Source of the DNA: Thiobacillus sp. 65-1059
GTDB lineage: Bacteria > Pseudomonadota > Gammaproteobacteria > Burkholderiales > Thiobacillaceae
NCBI GenBank assembly: GCA_001897675.1
Contig: MKUE01000123.1
Span: forward strand, 1-64,000
Direction: 5' to 3'
DNA length: 64,000 nucleotides
Both the position numbers and the translations under genes were made by a program. The first letter of the stretch is position 1. Each line of letters starts with the position of its first letter. The notes under the pieces are model-generated. The model saw only the letters and a list, made by a program, of their open reading frames with translations. It ran no database searches and was not told where the DNA came from. This document shows positions 16,697 through 44,595 of the stretch, in pieces.

Positions 16697-16712
16697 AGCA
16701 ATACGCATGCCA
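16697..16712 (-). promoter_or_regulatory. Sigma-54 promoter of the fds operon
   Basis: On the minus strand the sequence reads TGGCATGCGTATTGCT, with GG and GC exactly 10 bp apart and close to the -24/-12 consensus. A transcript start near 16685 would leave about 20 bp before the fdsG ATG at 16664, enough for AGGTG. The nearest palindrome (16811-16825) lies 99 bp upstream. Confidence 0.8.
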
Positions 16713-16810
16713 GCGCGCGCCCATCCCGGACGGATCAACAATTTCCAATATCAATCAACAGTTTGAAAAGCCATTTCCAGAAACCGGCATGATTCGCCCG
16801 GCCCAAAGGC

Positions 16811-16825
16811 GTGACACTCTGTCAC
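16811..16825. promoter_or_regulatory. Palindromic enhancer site GTGACA-CTC-TGTCAC
   Basis: This 15-bp perfect dyad (6-bp arms, 3-bp centre) lies between the divergent fdsG and mtoX genes. The same sequence, in the opposite orientation, is at 44511-44525. A perfect variant with A/T outer pair is at 36859-36873. Its distance from sigma-54 promoters fits an upstream activator site for an NtrC-family protein. Confidence 0.72.
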
Positions 16826-16857
16826 GTCCGGCAGCATCCGGCGCGCAGCCCAGATTC

Positions 16858-16872
16858 GCGACATATTGTCAC
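16858..16872. promoter_or_regulatory. Second palindromic enhancer site GCGACA-TAT-TGTCAC
   Basis: This is a copy of the C1 palindrome with one arm mismatch (GCGACA for GTGACA), 47 bp centre to centre from the site at 16811. It ends 88 bp before the -24 element of the mtoX promoter at 16961. The two copies together could serve both divergent promoters. Confidence 0.65.
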
Positions 16873-16960
16873 GCCCCTGAAATCCAGTCCGTCCCGCACC
16901 GCATACGGGAAAACCCTGTGCGACACCTGTAATCGATTGATCCTAAAGCAACAAAAACTT

Positions 16961-16976
16961 TGGCATGGGAGTTGCT
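16961..16976 (+). promoter_or_regulatory. Sigma-54 promoter of mtoX
   Basis: TGGCATGGGAGTTGCT has GG-N10-GC spacing and near-consensus -24 and -12 elements. It predicts a start near 16987 and a leader of about 98 bp to the mtoX ATG at 17085. The stretch from 16665 to 17084 holds this promoter, the fds promoter and the two palindromes, and no gene. Confidence 0.82.
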
Positions 16977-17084
16977 ATAACGATGCGGAGTAGCTTCGTC
17001 CATCCCGGTCGTCACTCCGACTTCCGGAAACGCGGCTCCTATAGGCTTTGATCAATGTTCTGTGGATTTTAAAAGGAGACTGAC

Positions 17085-18473
17085 ATGACTAAAGAAAACA
17101 ACCGTTTTTCCATGAAAACCCTGGCGATCGCCGTTTCTGCCACTGTCGCTTTGGGCGTTGCCGCCCTGCCCAGCCTCTCGCATGCCGACGAGACCTGCAA
17201 CTCGCCCTTCACCCCGCTGATCAAGGGGCAGGAAGACCTCGTCTACGTGTGGACACTGGGCGTGGAAGGCATCGGCGACGGTTCCGACAAGCTCGTCACC
17301 GTCGACGTCCGCCCCGGTTCCAAGACCTTCGGCAAGATCATTGCCACTCTCTCCACGGGCGACCGCGGCGAAGCGCACCACATGGGCTTCACCGACGACC
17401 GCCGCTACATGTGGGCGGGTGCGCTCGATTCGAACAAAATCTTCATCTTCGATATTCACAGCAACCCTGCCAAGCCCAAGCTGGTCAAGACGATCACCGA
17501 CTTCGCCGAGAAGACCGGTTTCGTCGGCCCGCACACCTTCTACGCCCTGCCGGGCCGCATGCTGATCCAGGCGCTGTCCAACACCAAGGACCACGGCGGC
17601 CGCACCGGTCTGGTCGTCTACAACAACGACGGCGAGCTGATCAACACGATCGACATGCCGACCGGCACCTTCAATGGCGTGTACGCCGACGGCTACGGCT
17701 ACGATCTGGGCATCAACCCGCAGCAGAACGTGCTGTTGACCTCCAGCTTCACCGGCTGGAACAACTACATGATGGACATGGGCAAACTGGTCAAGGACCC
17801 CGAGGCGATGAAGCATTTCGGCAAGACCATGGCGATCTGGGACGCCAAGACCCTGAAGCCGAAGAAGGTCTTCGAAGTACCGGGTGCGCCGCTGGAAATC
17901 CGCTGGTCGCTGAAGGAGGGCGACAACTGGGCCGTTACCGCGGCTGCGCTGACCGGCAAGCTGTGGGTCGTCAAGCAGGACAGCAGCAAGGAATGGCAGG
18001 CCTATGACGTGGGCACCATCAAGACCGAAAGCCCCGTTCCATTGCCCGTCGACATCTCGCTCAGTGCCGACGGCAAGGGCTTGTGGGCCAACACCTTCCT
18101 GGATGGCGTGACACAGTACTGGGATTTCTCCAATCCCATGAAACCGAAGATGATCTACAAGAAAAAAATTGCCTCGCAGGTCAACATGGTGTCGCAATCC
18201 TTCGACGGCAAGCGTGTGTATTTCACCACTTCGCTGCTCGGCAACTGGGACAAGAAGGGCAAGGGTGACGAGCAACTCCTGAAGATGTACAACTGGGATG
18301 GCAAGAAACTTGCCGAAGTGTTCTCGATCGACTTCTACAAGGAAAAGCTCGGTCGCGCTCACCACATGAAGTTCCAGGCGATCAACCTGAAAGAGCTGCA
18401 GCCTCTCCAGGCCAGGCTCGACGGTGCAAGCACGCAGAACAAGCTTGCATTGACCGATCTGTTGAGCAAATAA
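17085..18473 (+). CDS. mtoX: Methanethiol oxidase (SBP56/selenium-binding protein family)
   Basis: This 462-residue periplasmic enzyme has a signal peptide (about residues 1-36, ending SLSHA). The SBP56 family as MtoX oxidises methanethiol to formaldehyde, hydrogen sulfide and hydrogen peroxide with copper. Family features include the histidine-rich segments GEAHHMGF and GRAHHMKF, and the beta-propeller repeats LDSNKIFIFDIHS and VDISLSADGKGLWAN. It is followed by SCO1-like and MauG-like genes, the arrangement known from characterised mtoX operons. The strong ribosome site AAGGAG precedes ATG 17085. Expression is predicted to be sigma-54-dependent. Confidence 0.92.
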   Translation: MTKENNRFSMKTLAIAVSATVALGVAALPSLSHADETCNSPFTPLIKGQEDLVYVWTLGVEGIGDGSDKLVTVDVRPGSKTFGKIIATLSTGDRGEAHHMGFTDDRRYMWAGALDSNKIFIFDIHSNPAKPKLVKTITDFAEKTGFVGPHTFYALPGRMLIQALSNTKDHGGRTGLVVYNNDGELINTIDMPTGTFNGVYADGYGYDLGINPQQNVLLTSSFTGWNNYMMDMGKLVKDPEAMKHFGKTMAIWDAKTLKPKKVFEVPGAPLEIRWSLKEGDNWAVTAAALTGKLWVVKQDSSKEWQAYDVGTIKTESPVPLPVDISLSADGKGLWANTFLDGVTQYWDFSNPMKPKMIYKKKIASQVNMVSQSFDGKRVYFTTSLLGNWDKKGKGDEQLLKMYNWDGKKLAEVFSIDFYKEKLGRAHHMKFQAINLKELQPLQARLDGASTQNKLALTDLLSK

Positions 18474-18489
18474 ACACCAAGAGGTTGTC

Positions 18490-19266
18490 ATGTCATACCA
18501 GAGTGCCAATATCGTGATACGGGCACTCCCCCCCCCCTCGCGGGGGGGGGGAGTTTTCAAGTCTCTTTTGTCTCTGCTGTTTCCGCTTTCCCTGGCCTGC
18601 GCCTCTCTGCCCAGCCATGCAGCCGCCGCCCCGGTCAAAGACCCCAATGCAAGCGGCGAGCTGATTTTCGATTACGACATCCATCCGCCGGGAACCTATA
18701 CCCTGCAAAAAATCCAGCACGCTGCCAGCGGTCAGGTTCTGGATACCGAGGGCCGCGTCCGTGCACTCGCCGATTCCTTTGGCGGCGGCAAGGTTACCCT
18801 GCTGTCTTTCATTTACTCCAGTTGCGCCGATCCCAACGGCTGCCCCTACGCCTATACGGTGTTCCACCTGATCAAGAGCCGGATGGAACGCGAACAACCC
18901 CAGCTCACCGGCAAAACCCGGCTCGTCAGTCTCTCGTTCGATCCCGAGCGGGATACGCCCGAAGTGCTCAAGCTCTATGCCGGCGCGGATGCGAACGCCG
19001 CGAAGGGTATACAGTGGGATTTTCTGACGACGGCCTCGCTGCGCGAACTGATTCCCATCCTGGACGCATACCGGCAGGATGTGTATTTCGATCTCGATCC
19101 CAAAACCGGGCAACCACTTGGGACCATGAGCCACGTATTGAAGGTCTTCCTGATAGATCGCGCCGGAGATGTGCGCGAAATCTATACAGCTTCATACTTG
19201 AACCCGGACGTCGTTTACAACGACATTCTGACTCTCCTTCTCGAAGACGGGGCAGCACTGAAATGA
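18490..19266 (+). CDS. SCO1/SenC-family copper chaperone of the mtoX operon
   Basis: This 258-residue thioredoxin-fold protein is probably exported and loads copper into MtoX. Copper ligands are likely C112, C118 and H215 (SSCADPNGCPY and MSHVLKVFLID). The cysteines are spaced CX5C rather than the CX3C of classical SCO1. ATG 18490 has AAGAGG 5 bp upstream. The normal signal peptide seems to begin only at about residue 22 (VFKSLLSLLFPL). The first 21 codons span a perfect poly-C/poly-G hairpin (18525-18554), so the N-terminus is odd. It overlaps the MauG gene by four bases. Confidence 0.85.
   Translation: MSYQSANIVIRALPPPSRGGGVFKSLLSLLFPLSLACASLPSHAAAAPVKDPNASGELIFDYDIHPPGTYTLQKIQHAASGQVLDTEGRVRALADSFGGGKVTLLSFIYSSCADPNGCPYAYTVFHLIKSRMEREQPQLTGKTRLVSLSFDPERDTPEVLKLYAGADANAAKGIQWDFLTTASLRELIPILDAYRQDVYFDLDPKTGQPLGTMSHVLKVFLIDRAGDVREIYTASYLNPDVVYNDILTLLLEDGAALK
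18525..18554. repeat. Perfect poly-C/poly-G hairpin inside the SCO1 gene start
   Basis: ACT followed by ten C, a TCGC loop, ten G and AGT forms a 13-bp perfect stem. It lies 35 bp after the SCO1 start codon and is translated as the Pro/Ser/Arg/Gly stretch RALPPPSRGGG. Homopolymers of this length are prone to slippage and to sequencing error. Confidence 0.85.
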
Positions 19267-20459: not shown

Positions 20460-20565
20460 ACGGCGGCAACCGGCCCGGCTCACCCAGAAGCCTTTGCGCC
20501 TCGCGCCCGAACCGCACCGTGTCCGCGGCCCCCATGGCCGCGGTCCATTTTGTAAAGGGAACCCC

Positions 20566-21099
20566 ATGAACAAAATCGTTTTCAAGACCGGCGAGGCCAC
20601 CGTTCTGGCCGGGGAAGGCCAGTACACCGACGCCATGCCGGAAATCCTCATCGGCAGCGTGGACGGCCCCGTGGGGCACGCCTTCGCCAACATGATGGGG
20701 CAGACCGCCGGCCATACCCGCATGTTCGCCATCCGCGCCTGCAACCAGCAGGTGCGCCCCGCCACGCTGATGGTGCCCAAGGTCACCATGAAAAGCATGG
20801 CCTACGTGGACCTGTTCGGCGGCACCGTGCAGGCCGCCACCGCCGACGCCGTGCTGGACTGCGTCATCGACGGCACCCTGCCGCGGGATCAGGCCAACGA
20901 CCTGTGCATCGTCAGCCTGGTGTGGATCGACCCGCGCTGCGCCAGCGACCCCAAGCTGGACCACAAGGATCTCTACCGCACCAACTACGAGGCCACCAAA
21001 CTGGCAATCAAGCGCGCCCTCGGCGACGAGCCCTCCATCGATGAGCTCATCGCCAACCGCCACGCGATCACGCACGACATGTACGACCCGACGGCCTGA
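20566..21099 (+). CDS. Fae homologue lacking the catalytic histidine
   Basis: This 177-residue paralogue of formaldehyde-activating enzyme is clearly related to the Fae at 50675 (TNYEATKLAIKRALG against [14 protein letters not shown]). By hand alignment, the catalytic His (His22 in the local Fae, in AHIDLIMG) is replaced by Met24 (AMPEILIG). It also has different pocket residues and a longer acidic loop near residues 125-140 (WIDPRCASDPKLDHKD). It is therefore unlikely to condense formaldehyde with H4MPT in the known way. A sensing or cofactor-binding role is possible. Ribosome site AAAGGGAA precedes ATG 20566. Confidence 0.88.
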   Translation: MNKIVFKTGEATVLAGEGQYTDAMPEILIGSVDGPVGHAFANMMGQTAGHTRMFAIRACNQQVRPATLMVPKVTMKSMAYVDLFGGTVQAATADAVLDCVIDGTLPRDQANDLCIVSLVWIDPRCASDPKLDHKDLYRTNYEATKLAIKRALGDEPSIDELIANRHAITHDMYDPTA

Positions 21100-21136
21100 G
21101 CGCCGCGCCGGCCGCGCAGTATCCCGCTGCCGGCCA

Positions 21137-21151
21137 AGTATTTTCCCCAAT
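21137..21151. promoter_or_regulatory. AGTA-N2-TTCCC motif, copy 1
   Basis: AGTATTTTCCCCAAT lies upstream of the ferredoxin gene at 21242. Similar 15-16 bp words occur at 29786 and 34628. All lie in intergenic parts of the accessory region, so this may be the site of one of the two LuxR-type regulators. Function is inferred. Confidence 0.4.
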
Positions 21152-21241
21152 AGGCATTCCCCCGCCCAGGTCCAAGAATGCGCGGGGTGCCCGACGATGG
21201 GCGGGAACCCATTCCATTCACCAGAGAAAGAGGAAAACACC

Positions 21242-21424: not shown

Positions 21425-21437
21425 CCCGGAAGGCGCG

Positions 21438-21467
21438 CCGGCCATGCGTACAATTACGCATGGCCGG
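21438..21467. terminator. 13-bp hairpin after the small ferredoxin gene
   Basis: CCGGCCATGCGTA pairs with TACGCATGGCCGG around the loop CAAT. It begins 14 bp after the ferredoxin stop. There is no T-run, so it may stabilise the transcript end or act as an attenuator rather than a classical terminator. A second, shorter hairpin (ATCCCCG/CGGGGAT at 21521-21539) lies in the same intergenic region. Confidence 0.5.
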
Positions 21468-21906: not shown

Positions 21907-21917
21907 GGGGGAACGAC

Positions 21918-22327: not shown

Positions 22328-23539
22328 ATGCAGGTGAAATCGATACGCGATCGGGTTGCCGACAGGGCGTCGACAGGCGCCGGGCAACACCTCGAAGCCC
22401 TGCTGCACAAGGCTCAGGAGATTGCCCGGGAGGTGGTGTCGCCCACGACCGAAGCGGTGGACCGCGACGCACGCTGGCCGGAGGCCGGCATTCGCGCGCT
22501 GCAACAGGCGGGATTCGGCGGCCTGGTGGTGCCTGCGGCCTATGGCGGCAAGGGCCACGGCCTGCTGGCCCTGGCCCGGGTGTGCGAAGTGCTGGGCCAG
22601 GAGTGCGCCTCCACCGCCATCTGCTTCGGCATGCACAGCGTGGGCGCATCGGTGATCTCGGCCAATGCCACCCCGGACCAGCAGGTCCGCTTTCTGGCCC
22701 CCATTTGCGAAGGCCGGCACATCACCACCCTGTCCCTGAGCGAGGCGGGCACCGGCGCTCATTTCTACCTGCCCCAGACCAGCCTGGAATCCCTGAGTGC
22801 CGAGCGCTACAGCCTGACCGGGACCAAGACCTTCGTCACCAACGGCGGCCACGCGGATTCCTATGTGGTGTCGGCGGTGGCGGCGGACCCGGACGCGCCG
22901 GTGGGGCAGTTCTCCTGCATCGTGGTGCCCGCCGACGCATCCGGCCTGAAATGGGGGCAGCCCTGGGATGGCCTCGGGATGCGCGGCAATTCCTCGCGTT
23001 CCATGGAACTGCACGGGGTGGAGGTGCCGCACAGCAACCTGCTGGGCAAGGAAGGCGACCAGATCTGGTACATCTTCAACGTGGTGACGCCCTACTTCCT
23101 GATGGCCATGGCAGGCACCTTCCTGGGCGTGGCCACCACCGCCCTGGATGAGGCGCGCAAGCACCTCATGCGCCGCTATCACGCCCATACCGGTTCCAGC
23201 CTGGCCCAGACCTCGGTGCTGCAGCATCGCCTCGGCACCCTGTGGGGCATGCTCGAACGCACCCGCAGGCTCACCTACCATGCCGCCGCCAGCTTCGACG
23301 CCGGCGAGCCCGACGCCCTGATGGCGGTGATGGCGGCCAAGGTGGAGGTGGCCGACTGCGCCGTGGCGATGGTCAATGAGGCCATGACCCTGTGCGGCGG
23401 CATCGGATACCGCAGCGGCTCGCGTCTGCACCGGCTGCTGCGGGATGCCCGCGCCGCCCATCTGATGTCCCCCACCACCGATATCCTGCGCGTGTGGATC
23501 GGCCGTGCTCTGATGGGCCAGCCCCTACTCACGGACTGA
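22328..23539 (+). CDS. Acyl-CoA dehydrogenase family flavoprotein, atypical active site
   Basis: This 403-residue protein has the complete acyl-CoA dehydrogenase fold: FGGLVVPAAYGGKG, TTLSLSEAGTG, LTGTKTFVTNGG, GLGMRGNSSRSMEL and MTLCGGIGYR. Where classical enzymes carry the catalytic Glu (YEGT), this one reads MSPTTDILR (residues 380-388), so the usual base is replaced. It may use another base or be a flavin monooxygenase or desulfurase-type relative. The true substrate is unknown. AGGAGG precedes ATG 22328. The sensor-kinase gene begins 12 bp after its stop. Confidence 0.86.
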   Translation: MQVKSIRDRVADRASTGAGQHLEALLHKAQEIAREVVSPTTEAVDRDARWPEAGIRALQQAGFGGLVVPAAYGGKGHGLLALARVCEVLGQECASTAICFGMHSVGASVISANATPDQQVRFLAPICEGRHITTLSLSEAGTGAHFYLPQTSLESLSAERYSLTGTKTFVTNGGHADSYVVSAVAADPDAPVGQFSCIVVPADASGLKWGQPWDGLGMRGNSSRSMELHGVEVPHSNLLGKEGDQIWYIFNVVTPYFLMAMAGTFLGVATTALDEARKHLMRRYHAHTGSSLAQTSVLQHRLGTLWGMLERTRRLTYHAAASFDAGEPDALMAVMAAKVEVADCAVAMVNEAMTLCGGIGYRSGSRLHRLLRDARAAHLMSPTTDILRVWIGRALMGQPLLTD

Positions 23540-23551
23540 GTCTGACGAGCC

Positions 23552-26023
23552 ATGAGCGCGCCGCCCGCCGAGATTCCCGGACTGGTCAGCCTGGTAGGGG
23601 TGGATCGGGCGCTGGCGCGGCTGCTGAAAAGCCAGCTGCGCCCGGCGCTGGCGGTGGAGGCCCTGGACGACCAGAACGACCTGTTCCTCCACATGGAAGG
23701 CGGCGGCCTGCCGGTGGACGCAGTGGTGCTGGGAATGGCCTTGGAAGAACCGGTGCGGGTGGCCCAGCGTATCCACGTGCACGACAAGCACATCCCCATC
23801 CTCATCCTCAGCCGCCCCGCCGACTGCGATCAGCTCAAGCGCACCCTCATGTTCAGCCCGTTCCTGGGCAACGAGGTGACGCCCTGGCCCACCGACGAAC
23901 CGGACGGCCTGCCGGCGATCCTGCGCCAGGCGGCCGAGCGGCGGCGCCTGCGCATCCGCTATCAGAACGCCCTGTCTTCCGCCCAGATCCGTCTGGAAAA
24001 GCTGCCCCTGCTGCAGCCCGAGGCATCCCACTACCTGGACCAGCTGCTCGACCATGCCCCCATCGGCGTGGTTACCGTGGACCCGGCCGGCGCAATCCTC
24101 ACGCTCAACCGGCAGGCCCAGGACACGCTGCACGTTGCGGAACGCGGCGCGCTGGGGCGGCTGCTGGGCGATCTATTCCCGATCGCCGAACGGCAACGGC
24201 TGTGCGCCCTGCTGACCCGCTGCGCGTCGCATGGCCTGCGCCCCGGAGCCGAGGTATTCGAGTTCCACGCCGCCAACGGCACGCCCCGTTTCGTGGAAAT
24301 AGGCTGCACCCCCCTGACCTACCGCACCGGCCAGCGCGGCATCATGCTCATCATGCAGGACGTCACCGACCGCATACGGGCGGAGCGGGAGCGCTGCCGG
24401 GCCGAGAAGGAACTGCGCCTACACGCCACCGTGCTGCGCGGTTTTCACGAGATCAGCTCGGACCGTTCCCTGACCCTGGAAGAAAAGCTCAATCGCCTGC
24501 TCAAGCTGGGATGCGAGCAGTTCGGCCTGCCCATCGGCATCCTCTCCCAGGTCAACGGCGACATATTCAGGGTGCTGGACTCGGTGGGCGGAGAGGGCCT
24601 GTTTCCGGTGGGCGGCACCCGCGAACTGAGGCAGACCTATTGCGGCGGCACCGTGCTCTCCAGCGAGCCGGTGGCCCTGGAACATGCCGGGGCCAGCGAA
24701 TGGCGCGATCACCCCAGCTATACCCTGGGCGGGCTGGAGGCCTACATCGGGGTGCGCGTCCAGGTCGAGAACGAGCTCTACGGCACCCTCTGCTTCGCCA
24801 GCCCCAGCCCGCGCCCCAAGCCCTTCAGCTCGGCCGACCGCGAGATCCTCAAGCTCATGTCCCAATGGGTGGGCAGCGAGCTGCGCCGGGAACGGGCCGA
24901 TGCCCACATGCGCAAGCTGTCGGGAGCCCTGGAGCAGGCCGTCGACGCGGTCATCATCACCGACCGCGGACGCTTCATCGAATATGTGAACCCCGCATTC
25001 GAAACCCTCACCGGCTACCGGAAGGAAGAGGTGATCGGGCAGAAAACCTATTTCCTGCGTTCGGGCCTGCACGACGACAAGTTCTACGACGAGTTGTGGC
25101 AGGTCATCGGCACGGGCGGCGTATACCGGGGCGTCCTCATCAACCGCAAAAAGGACGGCAGCCTGTACCACGAAGCAAAGACCATCAGCCCGCTCAAGGA
25201 CGACCAGGGGCGCGTCACCCATTTCATTTCCACCGGGCACGACATCACCGAACTGGTGCGTGCCGAGGAACAAGACCGCCTGCACCGTGCCGAGCTGGCG
25301 CACGTGGCGCGCCTGAGCACCCTGGGCGAAATGACCTCGGGCCTGGCCCACGAATTGAATCAGCCCCTGTGCGCCATCACCACCTACGCCCAGACCGCCC
25401 TGCGTGTCCTCACGGGTCCGGACGGCAGCGCGGAGCGGGCGCGCTACGGCCTGGAGCAGGTGGTGCGCCAGGCCGAGCTGGCCGGCGAGATTTTCCGGCG
25501 CCTGCGCCATTTTGCCCGCAAGGGCGACATGAACCGCCGCCGTGTCTGCCTCAAGGAGGTGATACAGGAGGTGGCAGGATTCATCCACGCCGATGCCCAG
25601 CAAAGCGGCGTGCGGGTCGAACTGGCGGTGGCCCGTAACCTGCCCAGGGTACTGGCCGATCCGATCCAGATCGAACAGGTGCTGCTCAACCTGGCGCGCA
25701 ACGCCATGGACGCCATGGCCGGCGTCGAGGAACCGCGCCGGCAACTCCTGATCAAGGCCCGCCGCCAAGGCAGGCGGGGGGTACGGATGGAGATTCACGA
25801 CCGCGGACGGGGTTGCCCGCAGGCGGTGGCGGACCGTTTGTTCGAGCCCTTCTTCACCACCAAACCCGACGGCCTGGGCATCGGCCTCGGCATCAGCCAG
25901 AGCATCATCGAGGCCCACAACGGCCGGCTCTGGCTCGAAGGCAATTCCGACCAGGGCGCCACCTTCTGTTTCACGCTGCCCGGCGATGAGGATCAAGCAC
26001 ATGCGATCCATTCCTGCGATTAA
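23552..26023 (+). CDS. Sensor histidine kinase with PAS and GAF domains
   Basis: This 823-residue soluble kinase has no clear membrane segment. Order of domains: a degenerate receiver-like N-domain (residues about 10-120), PAS (about 150-280), GAF (about 285-450), PAS (about 455-575), then a HisKA domain with phospho-His at about residue 600 (GLAHELNQPL) and an HATPase domain (LNLARNAMDAM, GLGIGLGIS). It is FixL/TodS-like in outline. It overlaps the response-regulator gene and so should act on it. The sensed signal is probably cytoplasmic. Confidence 0.92.
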   Translation: MSAPPAEIPGLVSLVGVDRALARLLKSQLRPALAVEALDDQNDLFLHMEGGGLPVDAVVLGMALEEPVRVAQRIHVHDKHIPILILSRPADCDQLKRTLMFSPFLGNEVTPWPTDEPDGLPAILRQAAERRRLRIRYQNALSSAQIRLEKLPLLQPEASHYLDQLLDHAPIGVVTVDPAGAILTLNRQAQDTLHVAERGALGRLLGDLFPIAERQRLCALLTRCASHGLRPGAEVFEFHAANGTPRFVEIGCTPLTYRTGQRGIMLIMQDVTDRIRAERERCRAEKELRLHATVLRGFHEISSDRSLTLEEKLNRLLKLGCEQFGLPIGILSQVNGDIFRVLDSVGGEGLFPVGGTRELRQTYCGGTVLSSEPVALEHAGASEWRDHPSYTLGGLEAYIGVRVQVENELYGTLCFASPSPRPKPFSSADREILKLMSQWVGSELRRERADAHMRKLSGALEQAVDAVIITDRGRFIEYVNPAFETLTGYRKEEVIGQKTYFLRSGLHDDKFYDELWQVIGTGGVYRGVLINRKKDGSLYHEAKTISPLKDDQGRVTHFISTGHDITELVRAEEQDRLHRAELAHVARLSTLGEMTSGLAHELNQPLCAITTYAQTALRVLTGPDGSAERARYGLEQVVRQAELAGEIFRRLRHFARKGDMNRRRVCLKEVIQEVAGFIHADAQQSGVRVELAVARNLPRVLADPIQIEQVLLNLARNAMDAMAGVEEPRRQLLIKARRQGRRGVRMEIHDRGRGCPQAVADRLFEPFFTTKPDGLGIGLGISQSIIEAHNGRLWLEGNSDQGATFCFTLPGDEDQAHAIHSCD

Positions 26024-26627
26024 ACCCGTGGTCCACGTGGTGGACGACAACCCCGCGGTACGCGACGCCATCCGCTGGCTGGTGGAGCAGGTCGGCCTGA
26101 GCGCCCGCACCTACGCCACGGCCCAGGAATTCCTGTCGGCCTGCGATCCCGCCATGCGCGGCTGTCTGGTGCTGGATATCCGCATGCCCGGCATCAGCGG
26201 CCTGGACCTGCAGGACCGGCTGCAGGAGCAAGGCATCCACCTGCCGGTGATCATCATCACCGGGCACGGCGACGTGCCCGTCGCCGTGCGGGCCATGAAG
26301 GCCGGCGCACTGGAGTTCCTGCAGAAGCCTTTCAACGACCAGACCCTGCTGGATGCCATCCATGCCGCGCTGGAAAAATACCATGCGATCTGGGAGCAGC
26401 AGGACCAGTGCAACCACACCACCCGCAACCTGTCCGCGCTCACCCCGCGCGAACAGGAAGTGCTGGATCTGCTGCGCCACGGCAAGCCCAACAAGGTCAT
26501 CGCCTACGAACTGGGGCTGTCGGTACGCACCGTGGAGGGCTATCGCGCCCGCATCATGGAAAAAATGGGCGCGCACTCCCTGGGACAGCTCATCGAGATG
26601 GTCGTGCAGGCCGTGCCGAAAGGCTGA
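26001..26627 (+). CDS. LuxR-family (FixJ-type) response regulator
   Basis: This 208-residue regulator has an N-terminal receiver domain (acidic pocket VVDDN, phospho-Asp59 in LVLDIRMPG, Lys in LQKPF) and a C-terminal LuxR helix-turn-helix (LTPREQEVLDLL, then GLSVRTVEGYRARI). ATG 26001 has GAGGAT upstream; an in-frame ATG at 25986 is also possible. It overlaps the kinase gene by about 23 bp. It likely controls the neighbouring monooxygenase cluster, and is a paralogue of the regulator at 34762. Confidence 0.92.
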   Translation: MRSIPAIKPVVHVVDDNPAVRDAIRWLVEQVGLSARTYATAQEFLSACDPAMRGCLVLDIRMPGISGLDLQDRLQEQGIHLPVIIITGHGDVPVAVRAMKAGALEFLQKPFNDQTLLDAIHAALEKYHAIWEQQDQCNHTTRNLSALTPREQEVLDLLRHGKPNKVIAYELGLSVRTVEGYRARIMEKMGAHSLGQLIEMVVQAVPKG

Positions 26628-26718
26628 AAGGCATCGACGTCCCCGGCGGCGCGTCGAGCGCCGCGAACCCCGCCGCCCCGCAGCCGGGCGGCTTTCCCAA
26701 GCCCCCGTAAAACCACGT

Positions 26719-26740
26719 ATCCGCGCGTAGTACTGCGGAT
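26719..26740. promoter_or_regulatory. Inverted repeat ATCCGC-N10-GCGGAT upstream of the AlkB-like gene
   Basis: Six-bp arms at 26719-26724 and 26735-26740 flank a GTAGTAC core and are followed by TTTCCCG. The site lies about 115 bp upstream of the AlkB-like start and directly after the LuxR-type regulator gene. It is a candidate operator for that regulator. No sigma-54 promoter was found here. Confidence 0.42.
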
Positions 26741-26855
26741 TTTCCCGCCTGCCGTTTCACCATATAAATACGCCACAGACGGACTGCGCCATGCCATCGG
26801 GATAGCGCGGGCCGTCTCGATCCCGAACGCTATCGAAAACGAAAGGAGCAAGACC

Positions 26856-28136: not shown

Positions 28137-28208
28137 TCCCCCGCGCCGCCAGGCGCGGCCTCGGGCGGCCGGAATGGTCCGGCTGCCCAGCCACCCAAGG
28201 AGATCGAG

Positions 28209-28601
28209 ATGAACGCACCCACCGAAACCGCCCTGCAACAGGACACCGCCACCCTCTACGAGCGCCTGGGCTGCCGCCCCGGAATCGAAGCCATCGTCGA
28301 GGACATCTGGAACAACCACGTGAGCAATCCGCTGGTCAACAAGCGCTACGCCAACAGCGACCCGGCCACGGTCAAGCGCCTGGTCACCGAAATGTGCTGC
28401 GCCGGATTCGGCGGCCCCGAGACCTACACCGGCAGGGACATGCTCACCACCCACAAGGGCATGAACATCAACGACACCGAGTTCGTGGCCGTCTGCGACG
28501 ACGTGCTCAAGGCCCTCGACAAGCACAACGTGGGCAAGCGGGAGCGCGACGAAATCCTGTGCATCCTCTACTCCCTCAAGGGCGACGTGGTTTATCAGTG
28601 A
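28209..28601 (+). CDS. Truncated haemoglobin
   Basis: This 130-residue globin of the truncated (2-on-2) group has LYERLGCRPGIEAIVEDIW, FGGPETYTGRDM and the proximal-His region LTTHKGMNINDTEF. It may bind O2 or detoxify NO or peroxide close to the monooxygenase. AAGGAGATCG precedes the ATG. It is placed between the AlkB-like enzyme and its probable reductase. Confidence 0.9.
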   Translation: MNAPTETALQQDTATLYERLGCRPGIEAIVEDIWNNHVSNPLVNKRYANSDPATVKRLVTEMCCAGFGGPETYTGRDMLTTHKGMNINDTEFVAVCDDVLKALDKHNVGKRERDEILCILYSLKGDVVYQ

Positions 28602-28664
28602 GGCAACCCGGCATCGCCCGGCCGCACGCCGGGCGATGCCCACTTATGCAAAAGGAGTCGTGAC

Positions 28665-34761: not shown

Positions 34762-35400
34762 TCAGGAAACCGGGCTGGCCTCGTTCGCCGCCTGCGTTTC
34801 CATGCGCATCCATACCTGCACCAGCTCGGGCAGGGAATTCACACGCATCTTGAACATGACGTTGGCGCGGTGCACCTCGATGGTCTTCGGGCTCAGACCC
34901 AGCTTGATGGCAATCACCTTGTTGGCCTTGCCGGCCACCACGTGCGCGGCGACTTCCCGCTCGCGCGGCGTCAATTGCCGGTAGTTGGCCTGGATCCGGG
35001 CCAGCTCCCCGTGGCTGTGGCGGCGTTGCCGGCACAGTTCCAGGGCCAGCTGGATGCGGTCCAGCAAGGCCTGGTCGTTGTACGGCTTCTGCAGGAAATC
35101 GATGGCGCCGGCTTTCATCGCACGCACCGCCATGGGCACGTCGCCGTGGCCGGTGACGATGATGACCGGCAGGCACCAGTCGCGCTCCAGCAGGTGGCTC
35201 TGCAACTCCAGGCCGCTCATCCCGGGTATGCGCACATCCAGCACCAGGCAGCCAGGGGAGGCGCCGTCGTAGACATTGAGAAATTCGCGCGCCGAGGAAT
35301 AGCCGCACACCCGATGGCCGACCGACTCCAGCAGCCAGTGCAGCGATTCGCGCGCGGCCTGATCGTCGTCGACCACGAAAACGGTTTGCTGTTCAGCCAT
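34762..35400 (-). CDS. LuxR-family (FixJ-type) response regulator
   Basis: This 212-residue regulator has an acidic pocket VVDDD, phospho-Asp55 in LVLDVRIPG, Lys in LQKPYND and a LuxR HTH (LTPREREVAAHVV, GLSPKTIEVHRANVM). It overlaps the kinase gene by 8 bp. It is clearly a paralogue of the regulator at 26001 and probably acts on osmC-lpd-gcvH-rhodanese. Confidence 0.93.
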   Translation of the reverse strand: MAEQQTVFVVDDDQAARESLHWLLESVGHRVCGYSSAREFLNVYDGASPGCLVLDVRIPGMSGLELQSHLLERDWCLPVIIVTGHGDVPMAVRAMKAGAIDFLQKPYNDQALLDRIQLALELCRQRRHSHGELARIQANYRQLTPREREVAAHVVAGKANKVIAIKLGLSPKTIEVHRANVMFKMRVNSLPELVQVWMRMETQAANEASPVS

Positions 35401-36670
35401 CTATTTCCTCCTCGGTAGCCAGACACAGGGTGAAGCGGAACGTGAGGCCGTCGCCGTTCGGGTTGGGCAAGGGAATCAGGGCGCCGCCATGGGCCTCGAC
35501 GATGGAGCGGCAGATCGGCAGGCCCATGCCCATGCCAGCCGACTTGGTGGTGAAGAACGGCTCGAAAATCCGGTTCTGCATTTCGCGCGGCAGCCCGGAG
35601 CCGGTATCGCGCACCTCCACCACCGCCTTCCCCTCCGCCACGCAGGTGCGCAGCGTGAGATAGCGTCGTCCGGGCGGCACCTCGCCCATCGCCTCGACCG
35701 CGTTGCGCACCAGATTGAGCACGACCTGCTCGATCTGGATGGCGTGGCCCAGCACATGCGGCATGCCGGGTGCCAGATTCAGCCTGACGTCGACCTGGTG
35801 CAGGTTCACTTCCGGCCCGGCAATCAGCATGGCTTCGCGCACGATGGCATGCAGATCCTGCGGCTGGCGAGGGCTGTCCTCCTTGTTCACGAAACGGCGC
35901 AGGCTGCTGATAATGCCGCCGGCGCGCTCGGCCTGCTGGCAGACCTGCTCGATGGCCTGGGTCAGGTCCTCCACCGTGCCGCCGCCGGAACGGATGCGCC
36001 GCAGGCAGCCGCGCGAGTAGTTGGCAATGGCGGCAAGCGGCTGGTTCAGCTCATGCGCCAGGCCGGAAGCCATCTCGCCCATCGTGTTGACGCGCGCCGC
36101 ATGGGCCAGCTCGCGGTAATGCAGGCGCACCTCGTCCTCGGCGTGCTTGCGCGCGGTGATGTCGCGCGTGATGCCAAGCAGCGCGATCACGTTGCCGCGG
36201 CCGTCGCGCAGCGGCACGGCGTGGGTTTCCATCCAGCGCCGGCGGCCTTTCAGGCTGACGATCTGGAATTCCATGACGCCGGATTCGCCGGCAAATATCC
36301 GTTCGGTGAGCGTGCGGTATTCGTCGCGGAATTCCGGCGCGACCATGTCGTAGACCGAGGTGCCGATGATGTCGCCCGGCTGGCCGGCTTCGAGCAGCGC
36401 CAGTCCGGCCGGATTCATTTCCAGCAGGATGCCGTCGAGGGTTTGCAGCTTCACGCATTCCGGCTCCGAAGCGATGATCTGGCGCAGCCGGTTTTCGTTT
36501 TCCGCCAGCTTTTCCTCGGCTCGGCAGCGTTCGCCGATTTCGTTTTCCAGCACCCGCTTGGAATGGCGCAAGCGCAGGTTGAGGCGGGTAACGTACAGTA
36601 CCAGGCCCGCCATCAGGGCGAGAACGGTCGATAGCAGTGCCCAGGCAAACGGATTAGCGGGGTAATCCAA
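35393..36670 (-). CDS. PAS-domain sensor histidine kinase (FixL-like)
   Basis: This 425-residue kinase has one N-terminal membrane helix (about residues 8-28), a short coiled coil, one PAS domain (about 60-175), HisKA with phospho-His206 (GLAHELNQPLA) and HATPase (LNLVRNAVEAM, MGMGLPICRSIVEAHGG). There is no sizeable periplasmic domain, so the signal is probably cytoplasmic or redox. Transcription is predicted from the sigma-54 promoter at 36755-36770. Confidence 0.92.
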   Translation of the reverse strand: MDYPANPFAWALLSTVLALMAGLVLYVTRLNLRLRHSKRVLENEIGERCRAEEKLAENENRLRQIIASEPECVKLQTLDGILLEMNPAGLALLEAGQPGDIIGTSVYDMVAPEFRDEYRTLTERIFAGESGVMEFQIVSLKGRRRWMETHAVPLRDGRGNVIALLGITRDITARKHAEDEVRLHYRELAHAARVNTMGEMASGLAHELNQPLAAIANYSRGCLRRIRSGGGTVEDLTQAIEQVCQQAERAGGIISSLRRFVNKEDSPRQPQDLHAIVREAMLIAGPEVNLHQVDVRLNLAPGMPHVLGHAIQIEQVVLNLVRNAVEAMGEVPPGRRYLTLRTCVAEGKAVVEVRDTGSGLPREMQNRIFEPFFTTKSAGMGMGLPICRSIVEAHGGALIPLPNPNGDGLTFRFTLCLATEEEIDG

Positions 36671-36754: not shown

Positions 36755-36770
36755 AGCAACAATCGAACCA
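36755..36770 (-). promoter_or_regulatory. Sigma-54 promoter of the second sensor-kinase operon
   Basis: On the minus strand TGGTTCGATTGTTGCT has GG-N10-GC spacing; the -24 element is weaker (TGGTTCG). It lies 85 bp upstream of the kinase ATG. The palindrome 36859-36873 stands 89 bp upstream. The region 36671-37041 contains only these sites. Confidence 0.68.
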
Positions 36771-36858: not shown

Positions 36859-36873
36859 ATGACACTCTGTCAT
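36859..36873. promoter_or_regulatory. Palindromic enhancer site ATGACA-CTC-TGTCAT
   Basis: A perfect dyad with the same core as the sites at 16811 and 44511, but with A and T at the outer pair. It is between the kinase gene and ompW. Confidence 0.7.
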
Positions 36874-39226: not shown

Positions 39227-39229
39227 GGT

Positions 39230-40575: not shown

Positions 40576-41468
40576 GCCAGGATCTCCCGCAGACGATAGT
40601 GGAACTGTCCCAATTTGCCGCCGTAGTTGCCGGCCGACAGGCGCACGATGCCGCCCGCCGCGCCGATCGCGCACACCGCGTCGAGGCCGGCCTTCATGGC
40701 CACGCGCATGTCGGCGTCGCTGACCGCGTCGATGACGATCTCCAGCACCGCTTCCACGTCGGCGCCCAGTTCCGATCGGGCCACGCCGCGCAAGGTCGGA
40801 CAGAAGGCATCGTTGGTGGACGCCGGCAGCGTCTTGTACTTGGAGCCGATCTTGGAACCGGATCGCACCACGCCGCCGGGGAAAGGCGCGATCGCGCCGG
40901 GCACCTGGGCGATCGCCGCCGCCGCCGCCTCGCAGGCGGCGAGCGCCTGGGCGCGGGAACGGGCGAGAATCAGGAAGTTGCCGCCGCCGACGGAACGCAA
41001 CAGGCCGGTGGATTCCTCGGCCAGGAATTCGCCGTCCATCACCGGAATGCGCCAGTAGCGCCGGCCGCCGATCAGCTTGGACATCTGCCAGCCGTCGCCG
41101 AAATAGCGCAGGTTCTTGCCCAGCGGCAATGGCTCCTCGCCCTCGCAACCGGCGAACACGGCGGTGGTGGGGCAGGTCAGCACGCACTGGCCGACGCGGC
41201 GTTCCAACTGCTTGGCCAGTTCCTTGGTGGAGACCGCGAACAGCAGGCCAGCCACGCCGGGGCGGCCGTCCGGCGTGTCTGTCGGAGACAGTTCGCACTC
41301 GATGGCCGCTTCGCAACCGCAGGCGATCACCGAGGTGGCGAAGCCGAAGGCGGCGTTGGCCGCATGCCTTGCCCAGGTCAGGCTGTCCGCGGTGATGACG
41401 ATGCGGGTGGCCTTCATGCCGAAGGCTTCCGCATAGGTGTCGTCGATGAATACGCCGTTGATGATCAC
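40572..41468 (-). CDS. fhcD: Formylmethanofuran:H4MPT formyltransferase (Fhc subunit D)
   Basis: This 298-residue Ftr-family enzyme moves the formyl group from H4MPT to methylofuran. It shows NGVFIDDTYAEAFGMKATR, FATSVIACGCEA, CPTTAVFAG and GSKYKTLPASTND. The start is GTG 41468 with GGGAG upstream. It overlaps fhcA and fhcC by four bases each. Confidence 0.94.
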   Translation of the reverse strand: MIINGVFIDDTYAEAFGMKATRIVITADSLTWARHAANAAFGFATSVIACGCEAAIECELSPTDTPDGRPGVAGLLFAVSTKELAKQLERRVGQCVLTCPTTAVFAGCEGEEPLPLGKNLRYFGDGWQMSKLIGGRRYWRIPVMDGEFLAEESTGLLRSVGGGNFLILARSRAQALAACEAAAAAIAQVPGAIAPFPGGVVRSGSKIGSKYKTLPASTNDAFCPTLRGVARSELGADVEAVLEIVIDAVSDADMRVAMKAGLDAVCAIGAAGGIVRLSAGNYGGKLGQFHYRLREILA

Positions 41469-43129
41469 GCCGCTCTCCCTTTGCACGCATGGGGGATCAG
41501 CTTGCTGGCGCCGCAGGCGCAGATCTCGTCGTCGCTTACCCGGATGTGCTCCATCTTCACCGTCATGTAGCGGTCGAAATAATCCTTCAAGGGTTTCTCG
41601 ATGCCCTTGTCGTACTCCGGCTTCACCGCGTGCAGGGCGCCGTTGACCGCCTTCACCACCCGGCCGTCGCGCACGACGAGCTGGCCGTCCTTGAACACGT
41701 ACTCGGGCTTTTCGAACATCGCCTCGCGGTCGGCGTCGTCGCGGTACACCACGATGTCCGCCGCCGCGCCTGCGCCCAGGTGGCCGCGGTCGGAAAGGCC
41801 GAGGGAACGGGCCGGCGCGGCGCGGGTCATGACGGCGATCTCGTACAGACTGTATTCCCGCTCCAGGCTGCGCAGCTGGCTGTGGGCCGCCGCCTCGGCA
41901 TTGATCTCGTCCAGTTTCGCGTTGCGGAACCCCCGGTCCATCAGCAGCCGGATCAGGTGGGGATAGCTGGTGAAAGGTGCGCCGTTGGGATGGTCGGTGG
42001 TCAGGAAAATGCGCCAGGGGTCGCTGACCCGCAGGAACAGTTCCAGGCCGATGGCCCATTGCAGCGCGTTGACGAAGTTCCTGTCCTTGTACTTGAACGG
42101 CACCACGCCGCAGCCGGCATCGCACTCGATGTCCATGACCACCCACTTGTCCGGGCTGGCGTGACGGCGATTGCGGTGCTGGCTCATGTTGTCGCCGGAG
42201 GCGGTGACGGTCTGGCCGAACAGGATCTGGCCGACGTCGGCCGACACATTGCGCATGCGGTTGATGGCATCGGCGATGCGTTCCGCCTCCGAGGAAAACC
42301 CGCGCTCGCCTTCCGTGCCGTAGCTGTGGAACTGGATGTGGGTCAGGTGGATGGGCAGGCCTTCCGCCGCTGCCATGGTGGCGAGCGTGGTGTCGGCGTT
42401 GCCGGGAATGCCCAGGTTGCTGGCGTGCACGTGCAGCGGGTGCGCCACGCCCAGCTCGTGCACGGCCCGGGCCAGGGCACGGATCACCTGGCGCGGGGTG
42501 ACGCCGTAATGCGGGTGCGCCTCGTCCAGGTCCAGGTTGCGGGCGTTGAACTTGAAAGCGGAGATGCCGCCCGGATTCACCACCTTGATCGCCATGGCCT
42601 GGCTGGCATCCAGCGTCCAGCCGACGTAGTCGTTGATCAAGCGCTGGTCGCTGCCGGAAGCCAGCAGGCGCAGGAAGAAGTCGTCGCTGCCGAGCATGGC
42701 GTAGGCGCCCTTGTCCACCATCGGGATATCGCCCATTTCCAGATGGGCGTGACGCGCGTTGGTGGGCAGCATGGCCGGCTCGAAGCAGGCGGTATAGCCC
42801 ATCTCGGCGTAGCGGTAGCCGGTGGTCCAGGTGGACGGCGCGGCGTGGCCGCAGCCGGCGTGCATCCCGCCCGCCGCCGGCACCGGATCGGCGCGGTGGT
42901 CCTCCGGCAGCAGGGCGCGGGCGATGTTCATCTTGCCGCCGCCGATATGGGTGTGCAGGTCGATGGCACCGGCCATCACGACCCGTCCGGAAAGGTCGAT
43001 CTCGCTGTCGATCCGGGCCTCCGGGCCGGGCGCGGCAACGATGCGGCCATCCTCCACATAGAGGTCGCGCACCAGGCCGTCGACGCCGTGCTCGGGGTCG
43101 TAGAGGCGGCCGCCTTTAAGTCGCAACAT
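41465..43129 (-). CDS. fhcA: Formyltransferase/hydrolase complex, subunit A
   Basis: This 554-residue amidohydrolase-family subunit should hydrolyse formyl-methylofuran to formate. Metal-binding residues are visible in DLHTHIGGGK near residue 58, then LHVHASNLG, and LTTDHPNGAP. The C-terminal CACGASKLIPHACKG may be structural. It overlaps fhcB by 14 bp and fhcD by four. Confidence 0.94.
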   Translation of the reverse strand: MLRLKGGRLYDPEHGVDGLVRDLYVEDGRIVAAPGPEARIDSEIDLSGRVVMAGAIDLHTHIGGGKMNIARALLPEDHRADPVPAAGGMHAGCGHAAPSTWTTGYRYAEMGYTACFEPAMLPTNARHAHLEMGDIPMVDKGAYAMLGSDDFFLRLLASGSDQRLINDYVGWTLDASQAMAIKVVNPGGISAFKFNARNLDLDEAHPHYGVTPRQVIRALARAVHELGVAHPLHVHASNLGIPGNADTTLATMAAAEGLPIHLTHIQFHSYGTEGERGFSSEAERIADAINRMRNVSADVGQILFGQTVTASGDNMSQHRNRRHASPDKWVVMDIECDAGCGVVPFKYKDRNFVNALQWAIGLELFLRVSDPWRIFLTTDHPNGAPFTSYPHLIRLLMDRGFRNAKLDEINAEAAAHSQLRSLEREYSLYEIAVMTRAAPARSLGLSDRGHLGAGAAADIVVYRDDADREAMFEKPEYVFKDGQLVVRDGRVVKAVNGALHAVKPEYDKGIEKPLKDYFDRYMTVKMEHIRVSDDEICACGASKLIPHACKGRAA

Positions 43130-44357
43130 GATTCATCTCCTGCTGGATCGCGGCCAGGGCCTGGGCCACGCTGGGCAGTTCGGCGGGCGCGTGGCCTTGC
43201 AGCGGCAGCGCCATCACCCCGTCCATGCGGTGCAGGAAGCCGGCGTGGTGCACGCCCGGCACGGCCACCGGAATGAATACGTCCGGCGGGTCGGCAAAGA
43301 CCATGTCCGGACGGCCCAGGACGATGCGCGGGCAGGCGGCGGCAGGCGGCACGCGTTCCGGATCGAGCGCGGAAATCCACAGCAGCGCATCCACCTCGCG
43401 CGCTTCCAGCAGACGCGCGGTGCCGAACAGCAGCGGTTCGTAGCGCGGGCCGGAAGCCTCGAAGGCGGTGCGCAGCGGATAGCCCGCCTGCCAGGTGCAG
43501 ACCTGGGAAGCGGAAGTGTCGCCGTCGTTGCCGCCGAGCGGCAGGCCCGACCAGCGCGTGGTCTGGTTGAGATCCTTGACCAGGTCGACCATGGCCTGGA
43601 TCGCCAGGTCGGCATGCGGAAAGTCCAGTTCCGCCGCGTTCCACACCAGCACGCCGTAGCGCGCTGCGCGCAGCATCTCCAGCAAGGCGTCGACCTGGAC
43701 CATCGGCACCCCGGCCACGGTGTCGGCATCGAGCCGCCGGCCGGCCAGGCGCGCGCGCAGGGCGCCGCACAGTTCGCCCAGACGCACGCTCGGGAGCGGG
43801 ATGACGAGATCCGCCGCGACGGAATGCGCCGCCTCCGGGAAAAGCCCGCTCCCCAGGACAACGAGCCGCCGGTGCAGCTCGCCGAACTGGGATTCCGGCG
43901 CCAGGCAGCGCTCGAAGAAACGCGGAAAACGGCTGGCATCGGTGCCGGCGAGCACGATCAGGTCGGCGCGGTTGCGCACTTCCGACAGCGTCGTGGTCAT
44001 CCAGCCGCCGTCCTGGAATGTCAGCCAGTTGCGGAACTGGGCGGCGCCGTTCATGTGCTCGACCACGCCGCCGGTGCGTTCGGCCAGCGCCAGGGCGGCG
44101 CGGTGGCCGGTGACGTCGCAGGCCAGTCCGCCGATCAGCGGACGCTGCGCGCGCGCCAGGAGGGCGGCAGCGGCCCGGCAGGCGGCGGCAGGCTCGACCG
44201 GCTGGCCGGCGAGCCGGGGCGTTGCGCGCGCGGGCGCGGCGAACAGCCTGGCAGCGCGCGCACAGGCCGGGCTTCCGGCACGCGCGCCGGAAGCGTCGGC
44301 CGCGACGCGGAGATCGTCGCAAACGAGGCCGCAGAAAGGACAGCAGGAATCGGACAT
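43116..44357 (-). CDS. fhcB: Formyltransferase/hydrolase complex, subunit B
   Basis: This 413-residue subunit is homologous to formylmethanofuran dehydrogenase subunit B without its redox role. The N-terminal cysteines CPFCGLVCDDL and SPACARA are kept, though family knowledge says the bacterial subunit lacks the Mo site. Start ATG 44357 (MSDSCCPFCG) is supported by homology and by the sigma-54 promoter at 44395-44410. First gene of fhcB-A-D-C-phosphatase-folP. Confidence 0.92.
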   Translation of the reverse strand: MSDSCCPFCGLVCDDLRVAADASGARAGSPACARAARLFAAPARATPRLAGQPVEPAAACRAAAALLARAQRPLIGGLACDVTGHRAALALAERTGGVVEHMNGAAQFRNWLTFQDGGWMTTTLSEVRNRADLIVLAGTDASRFPRFFERCLAPESQFGELHRRLVVLGSGLFPEAAHSVAADLVIPLPSVRLGELCGALRARLAGRRLDADTVAGVPMVQVDALLEMLRAARYGVLVWNAAELDFPHADLAIQAMVDLVKDLNQTTRWSGLPLGGNDGDTSASQVCTWQAGYPLRTAFEASGPRYEPLLFGTARLLEAREVDALLWISALDPERVPPAAACPRIVLGRPDMVFADPPDVFIPVAVPGVHHAGFLHRMDGVMALPLQGHAPAELPSVAQALAAIQQEMNHVAT

Positions 44358-44394
44358 AGAGGCGGGGACGATGTGTGTGAAAGCGTCCTCGTCA

Positions 44395-44410
44395 AGCAGG
44401 TTCCGTGCCA
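44395..44410 (-). promoter_or_regulatory. Sigma-54 promoter of the fhc operon
   Basis: On the minus strand TGGCACGGAACCTGCT has a perfect -24 element and a GC exactly 10 bp on. The start would fall near 44384, 27 bp before the fhcB ATG. The palindrome at 44511 is 100 bp upstream. Confidence 0.8.
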
Positions 44411-44510
44411 CACGCAAAGCGCGACGCCATTTGTCTGGTGAATCAAGCGGTTTGCCGGCGCCTACCCGCTCGCCGCAGCGGCCGGATGTCACGCGGCCCG
44501 TCCGCCCCGC

Positions 44511-44525
44511 GTGACAGAGTGTCAC
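44511..44525. promoter_or_regulatory. Palindromic enhancer site GTGACA-GAG-TGTCAC
   Basis: The exact reverse complement of the site at 16811-16825. An extra half-site lies close by: TGTCACGCGG at 44487-44496 pairs with CCGCGTGACA at 44507-44516. It stands between two diverging sigma-54 promoters. Confidence 0.75.
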
Positions 44526-44579
44526 ACCGCGACAAACCCGCCGAAACGCTAGCGCGATGATTGGTATGGTTTTTTTTCA

Positions 44580-44595
44580 TGGCATGGGGATTGCT
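44580..44595 (+). promoter_or_regulatory. Sigma-54 promoter of the mptG-mtdB-mch operon
   Basis: TGGCATGGGGATTGCT has GG-N10-GC spacing and is nearly identical to the mtoX promoter (16961-16976). It predicts a start near 44607, which places the true mptG start at 44632, not the in-frame ATG at 44557. Confidence 0.82.

Follow-up and report, generated by a model that had tools for sequence, protein, structure and literature searches.

AcoR is a sigma-54 enhancer-binding protein of the AcoR/DhaR/PrdR type. SfnR of Pseudomonas, to judge from the titles cited in PMC13352529, is a CysB-regulated sigma-54 activator for the use of dimethyl sulfone. In Ruegeria pomeroyi, an IclR-type gene is found upstream of mtoX, the gene for methanethiol oxidase (MTO), with methanethiol as inducer, and the discussion of the same paper describes the regulation of MTO expression as still to be learned (available part of PMC5739008). 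In Paracoccus, the FlhRS two-component system controls formaldehyde metabolism, the consuming enzymes being GD-Faldh and Fgh (PMC8879981, as far as accessible). The accessible main text of PMC12316311 names formate dehydrogenases among predicted sigma-54 targets, without mention of methanethiol, formaldehyde or Thiobacillus, and for Methylosinus sporium the text available links RpoN sites to nitrogen genes. The window analysed here is a stretch of 64,000 nucleotides from Thiobacillus sp. 65-1059 (genome G000, 2,906,018 bases in 143 contigs), corresponding to C123:1-64000 on a contig of 80,348 bases. In it, genes for formate dehydrogenase (fdsGBA), methanethiol oxidase (mtoX) and formaldehyde oxidation through tetrahydromethanopterin (H4MPT) and methanofuran carry a shared enhancer palindrome beside predicted sigma-54 promoters. 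A neighbouring activator, this palindrome and sigma-54 very probably exert joint control over the route from methanethiol to CO2.

In searches of open-licence PMC text, no described regulator linking mtoX to H4MPT formaldehyde oxidation was found, and the accessible portions of PMC5739008, PMC13352529, PMC5248467, PMC12403871, PMC5023235, PMC12316311 and PMC8879981 do not describe this regulon. Like SfnR, known by titles, the proposed regulator would be a sigma-54 activator of a methylated-sulfur pathway, but the pathway here oxidises the methyl carbon to CO2; by these titles SfnR differs in its CysB regulation and its tie to dimethyl sulfone (PMC13352529). As in Ruegeria pomeroyi, an mtoX-SCO1 operon appears to be regulated, here within a sigma-54 regulon joined with H4MPT genes instead of by IclR-type control (PMC5739008, in the part available). 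As with FlhRS, formaldehyde-producing and -consuming enzymes would be coordinated, whereas the activator is no two-component system and the consumer is the H4MPT pathway (accessible text of PMC8879981). The proposed regulon would be new, its mechanism of a known kind.

The four palindromes lie where the earlier note had placed them and are intergenic relative to the assigned genes; some mechanical open reading frames (ORFs) overlap the sites. The gene caller overlooked fdsG, so that its coordinates were taken from the mechanical ORF list. The extended sigma-54 consensus is GG-N10-GC in the form TGGCAYG-N4-TTGCW, and the five promoters that the same note had proposed are found at exactly its coordinates, agreeing with this consensus at 10-11 of 12 positions. 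Sites resembling the consensus of integration host factor (IHF), WATCAANNNNTTR, lie between enhancers and promoters. These features are as follows.

16811-16825, no strand: predicted enhancer palindrome 1, GTGACACTCTGTCAC, exact; aligned footprint in relatives
16858-16872, no strand: predicted enhancer palindrome 2, GCGACATATTGTCAC, one mismatch; aligned footprint in relatives
36859-36873, no strand: predicted enhancer palindrome 3, ATGACACTCTGTCAT, two mismatches, in the outer pair
44511-44525, no strand: predicted enhancer palindrome 4, GTGACAGAGTGTCAC, exact; both half-sites the same in 11 of 11 aligned sequences
44487-44492, plus: additional conserved TGT(CAC) half-site, TGT invariant in 11 aligned sequences
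16697-16712, minus: predicted sigma-54 promoter of fdsGBA, TGGCATGCGTATTGCT, 11 of 12 consensus positions
16961-16976, plus: predicted sigma-54 promoter of mtoX, TGGCATGGGAGTTGCT, 11 of 12
36755-36770, minus: weaker sigma-54-like promoter of a PAS sensor kinase gene, 10 of 12
44395-44410, minus: predicted sigma-54 promoter of fhcBA, TGGCACGGAACCTGCT, 11 of 12
44580-44595, plus: predicted sigma-54 promoter of the mptG operon, TGGCATGGGGATTGCT, 11 of 12
16753-16765, plus: IHF-like site between enhancer and fds promoter, AATCAACAGTTTG
16930-16942, minus: IHF-like site between enhancer and mtoX promoter, one mismatch
44441-44453, plus: IHF-like site between enhancer and fhcB promoter, one mismatch

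Near 16892 a further conserved TGT/GTC half-site-like stretch is seen by the palindromes; this stretch and the half-site at 44487-44492 may give room for further activator dimers. The gaps between palindrome and promoter are about 98 bp for fdsG, 89 bp for mtoX (from 16858), 88 bp for the kinase, 100 bp for fhcB and 55 bp for mptG, agreeing with the enhancer distances of about 55-101 bp claimed before, and across relatives they are mostly 52-147 bp, which fits an upstream activator site some 50-200 bp off. An IHF-like match (at most one mismatch) is found in 15 of 28 enhancer-promoter gaps from seven related genomes, where mononucleotide shuffles would lead one to expect 1.2; all 15 are at fds, mtoX, fhcB or mptG promoters, where IHF likely takes part.

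The genes behind these promoters, as assigned from their family matches, provide the steps that lead from methanethiol by way of formaldehyde and formate to CO2, together with cofactor genes. The H4MPT set for formaldehyde oxidation is represented by fae, mch, fhcA/B and beta-ribofuranosylaminobenzene 5′-phosphate (beta-RFAP) synthase; both fae genes of the region pass the NCBIfam cut-offs, and several genes for cofactor biosynthesis match below them. A start of mptG at 44557 was rejected as lying upstream of its own promoter, and the start was re-assigned to the in-frame ATG at 44632, since the promoter lies between the two positions.

11807-14668, minus: fdsA, formate dehydrogenase alpha subunit (TIGR01591 over cut-off)
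14665-16227, minus: fdsB (NuoF-like, under cut-off)
16224-16673, minus: fdsG, formate dehydrogenase gamma subunit (NF004638 over cut-off)
17085-18473, plus: mtoX, methanethiol oxidase (NF052453, 720.6 bits, cut-off 650)
18490-19266, plus: SCO1/SenC gene, 3′ of mtoX (PF02630)
34762-35400: LuxR-type response regulator gene adjoining the sensor kinase
35393-36613, minus: PAS-HisKA-HATPase sensor kinase (domain matches)
41465-43129, minus: fhcA (TIGR03121 over cut-off)
43116-44357, minus: fhcB (TIGR03129, 282 bits, under the cut-off of 328)
44632-45624, plus: mptG, beta-RFAP synthase (TIGR00144 over cut-off, NF040726 under)
45655-46563, plus: methylene-H4MPT dehydrogenase-like gene (PF09176)
47761-48741, plus: mch (TIGR03120 over cut-off)
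50675-51187, plus: fae, formaldehyde-activating enzyme (TIGR03126 over cut-off)
62101-63501, minus: dihydropteroate synthase (DHPS)-like gene (TIGR00284 under cut-off)
64027-64527, minus: 6-pyruvoyltetrahydropterin synthase (PTPS)-like gene after the DHPS-like gene, beyond the window end

Neither kind of site is striking within the window. At up to two mismatches the four palindromes are its full set, while shuffles give a mean of 1.56 and reach four in 4 of 100 cases, so that the count considered by itself is only mildly unusual, and promoter score alone does not single out the five promoters because nine sites in the window score at least 10. The palindrome count in the window is unremarkable; it is the genome-wide data that carry weight. 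With the pattern GTGACANNNTGTCAC at no more than one mismatch, the genome holds five sites, against none for the reversed-pattern control: 16811, 16858, 44511, C123:66623 (2.6 kb beyond the window end) and C19:7437. Four of the five are grouped within 50 kb, every one of them flanked by sigma-54 promoters. The site C19:7437, within an ORF on another contig that is methyltransferase-like by eye, was rejected as a member of the regulon. At two mismatches or fewer the count rises to 31, while the control gives 16. Only four of these fall within 300 bp of any of the 75 sigma-54-like sites of the genome, all four in this cluster; the 36859 site is missing from them because its promoter fits the search pattern less well. 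In a profile of 32 sites GACA and TGTC are invariant and the centre is always A or T; all sites save one were picked at up to one mismatch, a selection that itself favours conservation.

The regulator is encoded outside the window, as the earlier note had stated, and a candidate is found about 0.5 kb beyond the end, with a copy of the palindrome between divergent sigma-54 promoters.

64529-66490 of C123, minus: gene for a GAF-AAA+-Fis-type helix-turn-helix (HTH) activator, 653 residues, about 0.5 kb outside the window
66509-66524, minus: predicted sigma-54 promoter of the activator gene
66623-66637: palindrome upstream of the activator gene, GGGACAAATTGTCAC, at most one mismatch
66741-66756, plus: predicted sigma-54 promoter of a SCO1 gene, divergent from that of the activator
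From 66792: SCO1 gene, followed from 67366 by a GTP cyclohydrolase FolE2 gene

The protein has a GAF domain at residues 71-204, a weak PAS match, an AAA+ domain at 344-507 (PF00158, 219.5 bits) and a Fis-type HTH at 604-643 (PF02954, 51 bits). Among 12 aligned relatives neither GAFTGA nor the HTH segment SRNTLYR varies, and Walker A reads GETGTGKE in 11 of the 12 and GESGVGKE in a relative of 44% identity. Because no receiver domain is present among its Pfam matches, it would be a ligand-type activator and not an NtrC-type response regulator. In this architecture, with GAFTGA in the AAA+ domain, a Fis-type HTH, GAF input and no receiver, it resembles the AcoR/DhaR/PrdR type, but it falls far below the NCBIfam cut-offs of PrdR (320 against 795 bits) and DhaR (291 against 551 bits), and its predicted targets are C1 oxidation genes. 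A PDB sequence search (E ≤1e-10) matched it only over the AAA+ and HTH parts, beginning near residue 316, and the predicted structure of a 99% relative, with a mean predicted local distance difference test (pLDDT) score of 51, was not used. The closest named record is that of Thiobacillus sp. 65-1402 (99%); others come from T. thioparus DSM 505, more Thiobacillus metagenome-assembled genomes (MAGs), Betaproteobacteria SCN1, a Gallionellaceae MAG and one MAG labelled Rhizobium.

The family comparison covers 117 genomes, relatives that are not independent of each other. Activator matches (E ≤1e-100) occur in 20 of them, as an orthologue of 76-100% identity in 11 and only as relatives of 42-45% in nine; G063 has a second copy of about 63% identity on another contig (L094 1501-3528). 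The gene mch is present in 13 genomes, namely the 11 with the orthologue plus G034 and G102, so that the orthologue is found in 11 of 13 genomes with mch and in none of the 104 others. The exact palindrome, present in 18 of the 117, accompanies the orthologue in 11 of 11 genomes as against 7 of 106 lacking it, and mch in 13 of 13 as against 5 of 104. One-sided Fisher values are 4e-11 to 9e-14 and, as relatedness is ignored, serve as a guide only. In the five palindrome genomes that lack mch, no sigma-54 site lies within 300 bp of the palindrome, nor does anything within 1.5 kb of it match a reference C1 gene; in G034 and G102 the palindrome again lies between fhcB and mptG, with a sigma-54 promoter on each side. 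mtoX passes its cut-off in 12 of the 117 genomes, ten of which also have the orthologue; G055 and G034 have mtoX without it, and in G052, which has the orthologue, mtoX was not found.

Promoter by promoter, the pairing was counted in stretches fetched from 13 genomes, with genes at 50% identity or more, palindromes at up to three mismatches and a sigma-54 promoter. Both elements precede fdsG and mtoX in 11 of 11 genomes each, mptG in 12 of 12 and fhcB in 11 of 12. The same count for ten further genes from this region (fae1, fae2, mch, those for the acyl-CoA-dehydrogenase-like protein and the desaturase, folP, OsmC, a PTPS gene, mfnA and mfnB) gave the pairing in none of the 4-11 genomes available for each, and they were rejected as extra members. 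The sensor-kinase promoter, the weakest of the five proposed earlier, is present and has the pairing in four of six genomes, being without it in G061 and G106. Where fds and mtoX lie about 7-15 kb apart (G106, G062 and G081), each retains its own sites; fdsG retains them in G052, as does mtoX on its own contig in G063, where fds is outside the stretch fetched. The palindrome and the -24/-12 elements are among the invariant alignment columns both for fhcB/mptG (11 sequences) and for fdsG/mtoX (six sequences). At the promoter of the activator gene, GG-N10-GC and a dyad-like ACA-N3-TGT core are kept in 10 of 10 aligned sequences; the promoter scores below 10/12 in G052 and G081, and in five of the ten (G106, G062, G052, G081 and G063) the dyad reads GGTACA-N3-TGTACC, with both arms changed.

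Beyond the family, the order-level survey of 399 genomes (E ≤1e-180) gave 13 with an activator match; 11 of these genomes belong to other families, with identities of 53-66%. Seven of the 11 have mch, and in the fetched DNA of all seven a DHPS-like gene lies beside the activator; mtoX passes its cut-off in three (G206, G263 and G256). In the three genomes read at fhcB/mptG, sigma-54 promoters point in both directions in G206 and G163 and to the mptG side only in G196. G263 has no mch; its activator adjoins mtoX, with GCGACAAATTGTCAC 88 bp from a promoter matching at 12 of 12 positions. Upstream of mtoX in G055 (no orthologue), G206 and G256, about 570 bases hold neither a palindrome at up to three mismatches nor a sigma-54 site scoring 9. 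Because mch is found in seven of the 11 and these three mtoX genes lack the site, the H4MPT cluster appears to be the commoner partner of the activator, whose core role would mainly be that of an H4MPT-pathway activator, while mtoX looks like a lineage-specific recruit. The idea of a shared sigma-54 enhancer regulon is supported by the genome scan, by an activator with its own site and by phylogenetic footprints. The proposed tie of formate, methanethiol and formaldehyde oxidation is upheld with a refinement: its stable core is the H4MPT pathway, which fds and mtoX join in this family and mtoX also in G263, but mtoX of G055, G206 and G256 has no such site.

Several observations weigh against control of all these promoters by the neighbouring activator. 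Besides this activator the genome encodes eleven more strong Sigma54_activat proteins (twelve in all, each over 200 bits), and G034 and G102 carry the sites while no orthologue was found in them, only relatives of 44-45% (these genomes are 88 and 87% complete). Its own site is weak, with palindrome and promoter in seven of 12 rows, one of which is the second gene copy of G063, and the pair in G062, with a gap of 201, is probably due to chance; the SCO1 gene beside the activator has the pairing in five of 11 genomes, and no promoter of fhcB in G061 reaches 10/12. Helical phasing of the gaps is not clear (resultants of 0.24, 0.10 and 0.45 at 10, 10.5 and 11 bp, respectively), and no IHF-like site with up to one mismatch is seen in the five gaps tested at activator, SCO1 and kinase promoters. 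In the other families the fhcB/mptG site is half-degenerate (GTGACA-AAA-TGCTCC in G206 and G163, GTGACA-CCC-TGTTCC in G196); of eight genomes read in front of the activator gene, only G263 and G378 showed variant cores, and no good promoter was found; and G378 and G171 carry an activator relative but neither mch nor mtoX over cut-off. The whole support is sequence comparison among related genomes, with counts that are not independent.

The regulon may be real and yet be served by another of the eleven enhancer-binding proteins, an improbable arrangement for which the number of candidates, the degenerate palindrome at the activator's own promoter and the two genomes with sites and only 44-45% relatives can be cited. 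Among the twelve, however, the neighbouring activator is the one whose gene is located at the cluster and preceded by a copy of the site; its orthologue follows mch closely within the family, and the incompleteness of G034 and G102 bears on its absence there. It is less probable still that the palindrome is a CRP/FNR-type or repressor operator, with the sigma-54 promoters served by other, unseen sites. GTGA...TCAC does resemble a pair of CRP half-sites, but its spacing, GTGA-N7-TCAC, differs from the N6 of CRP, and the invariant part of the 32 chosen sites is GACA-NWN-TGTC and not the outer bases. Elsewhere mtoX is under control other than by a sigma-54 activator, of IclR type in Ruegeria (PMC5739008, available part); against an operator of this sort speaks the conserved association with sigma-54 promoters, which in most cases lie 52-147 bp away; it is absent at the ten control genes.

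Chance agreement of inverted repeats with GG-N10-GC matches in a GC-rich genome can draw on the shuffles that equal the palindrome count of the window (4 of 100) and on the mere 2.5-fold excess of sigma-54-like matches over the reversed-pattern control (75 against 30). It has next to no probability and was rejected, being judged refuted by conservation: the sites are clustered and paired genome-wide, footprints extend over 12 genomes, and none is found at the ten control genes.

In the favoured mechanism, joint control by the neighbouring activator, the GAF-AAA+-Fis-HTH protein (64529-66490, minus) would bind (C/T)GTGACA-N(A/T)N-TGTCAC(G/A) dyads, probably helped by IHF bending to engage sigma-54 RNA polymerase. 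It would drive divergently arranged promoters at fdsG/mtoX, at fhcB/mptG and at its own gene/SCO1-folE2, and would thus be autoregulated; the sensor-kinase promoter is perhaps also activated. While the sites, promoters, spacing, conservation, co-occurrence and activator domains are observed, binding of the activator to the palindromes, participation of IHF and formaldehyde or another C1 intermediate as the signal are inferred. By this mechanism methanethiol oxidase, the H4MPT/methanofuran formaldehyde pathway and formate dehydrogenase would all be induced by a single signal (CH3SH -> HCHO -> HCOOH -> CO2). Formaldehyde or a C1 compound appears a likelier signal than methanethiol because in most of the distant relatives checked the H4MPT pathway is present and mtoX absent; this is a guess from the phylogenetic pattern.

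Some neighbouring features may be mentioned. A second, more divergent fae homologue lies near mtoX (20566-21099; 141 bits, against 255 for that at 50675) and is kept in several relatives. The block 22328-29729 encodes an acyl-CoA-dehydrogenase-like flavoprotein, a FixL/FixJ-like pair, a membrane desaturase-type protein, a globin and an MmoC/BenC-like reductase; in G060, G061, G062 and G106 it is kept, close to the sensor kinase. It looks like an oxygenase system, which one might guess to act on a methylated sulfur compound; no palindrome with a sigma-54 site was found upstream of the two genes tested. Past the window, at 69249-71038 of C123, an apparent dnaK (by eye) is split into two overlapping frames of 281 and 317 residues, which is a frameshift or an assembly error.

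The predicted regulon is also carried by the genome of T. thioparus DSM 505. According to the accessible text of PMC5248467, this strain does not grow on methanol, methylamines or formate, and T. thioparus strains Tk-m and E6 use dimethylsulfide, the ability of DSM 505 being stated there as unknown; its growth pattern would fit methylated sulfides as the physiological C1 source. It is possible, though rather doubtful, that the activator founds a sequence-defined C1-sensing sigma-54 family that accompanies the bacterial H4MPT pathway across the host's order, senses formaldehyde or a C1 adduct via GAF and has captured formaldehyde producers such as methanethiol oxidase through a shared enhancer. 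If joint control by the activator is true, one protein would explain how an obligate sulfur autotroph switches on the whole methanethiol-to-CO2 route, and this activator would be a candidate C1 sensor.

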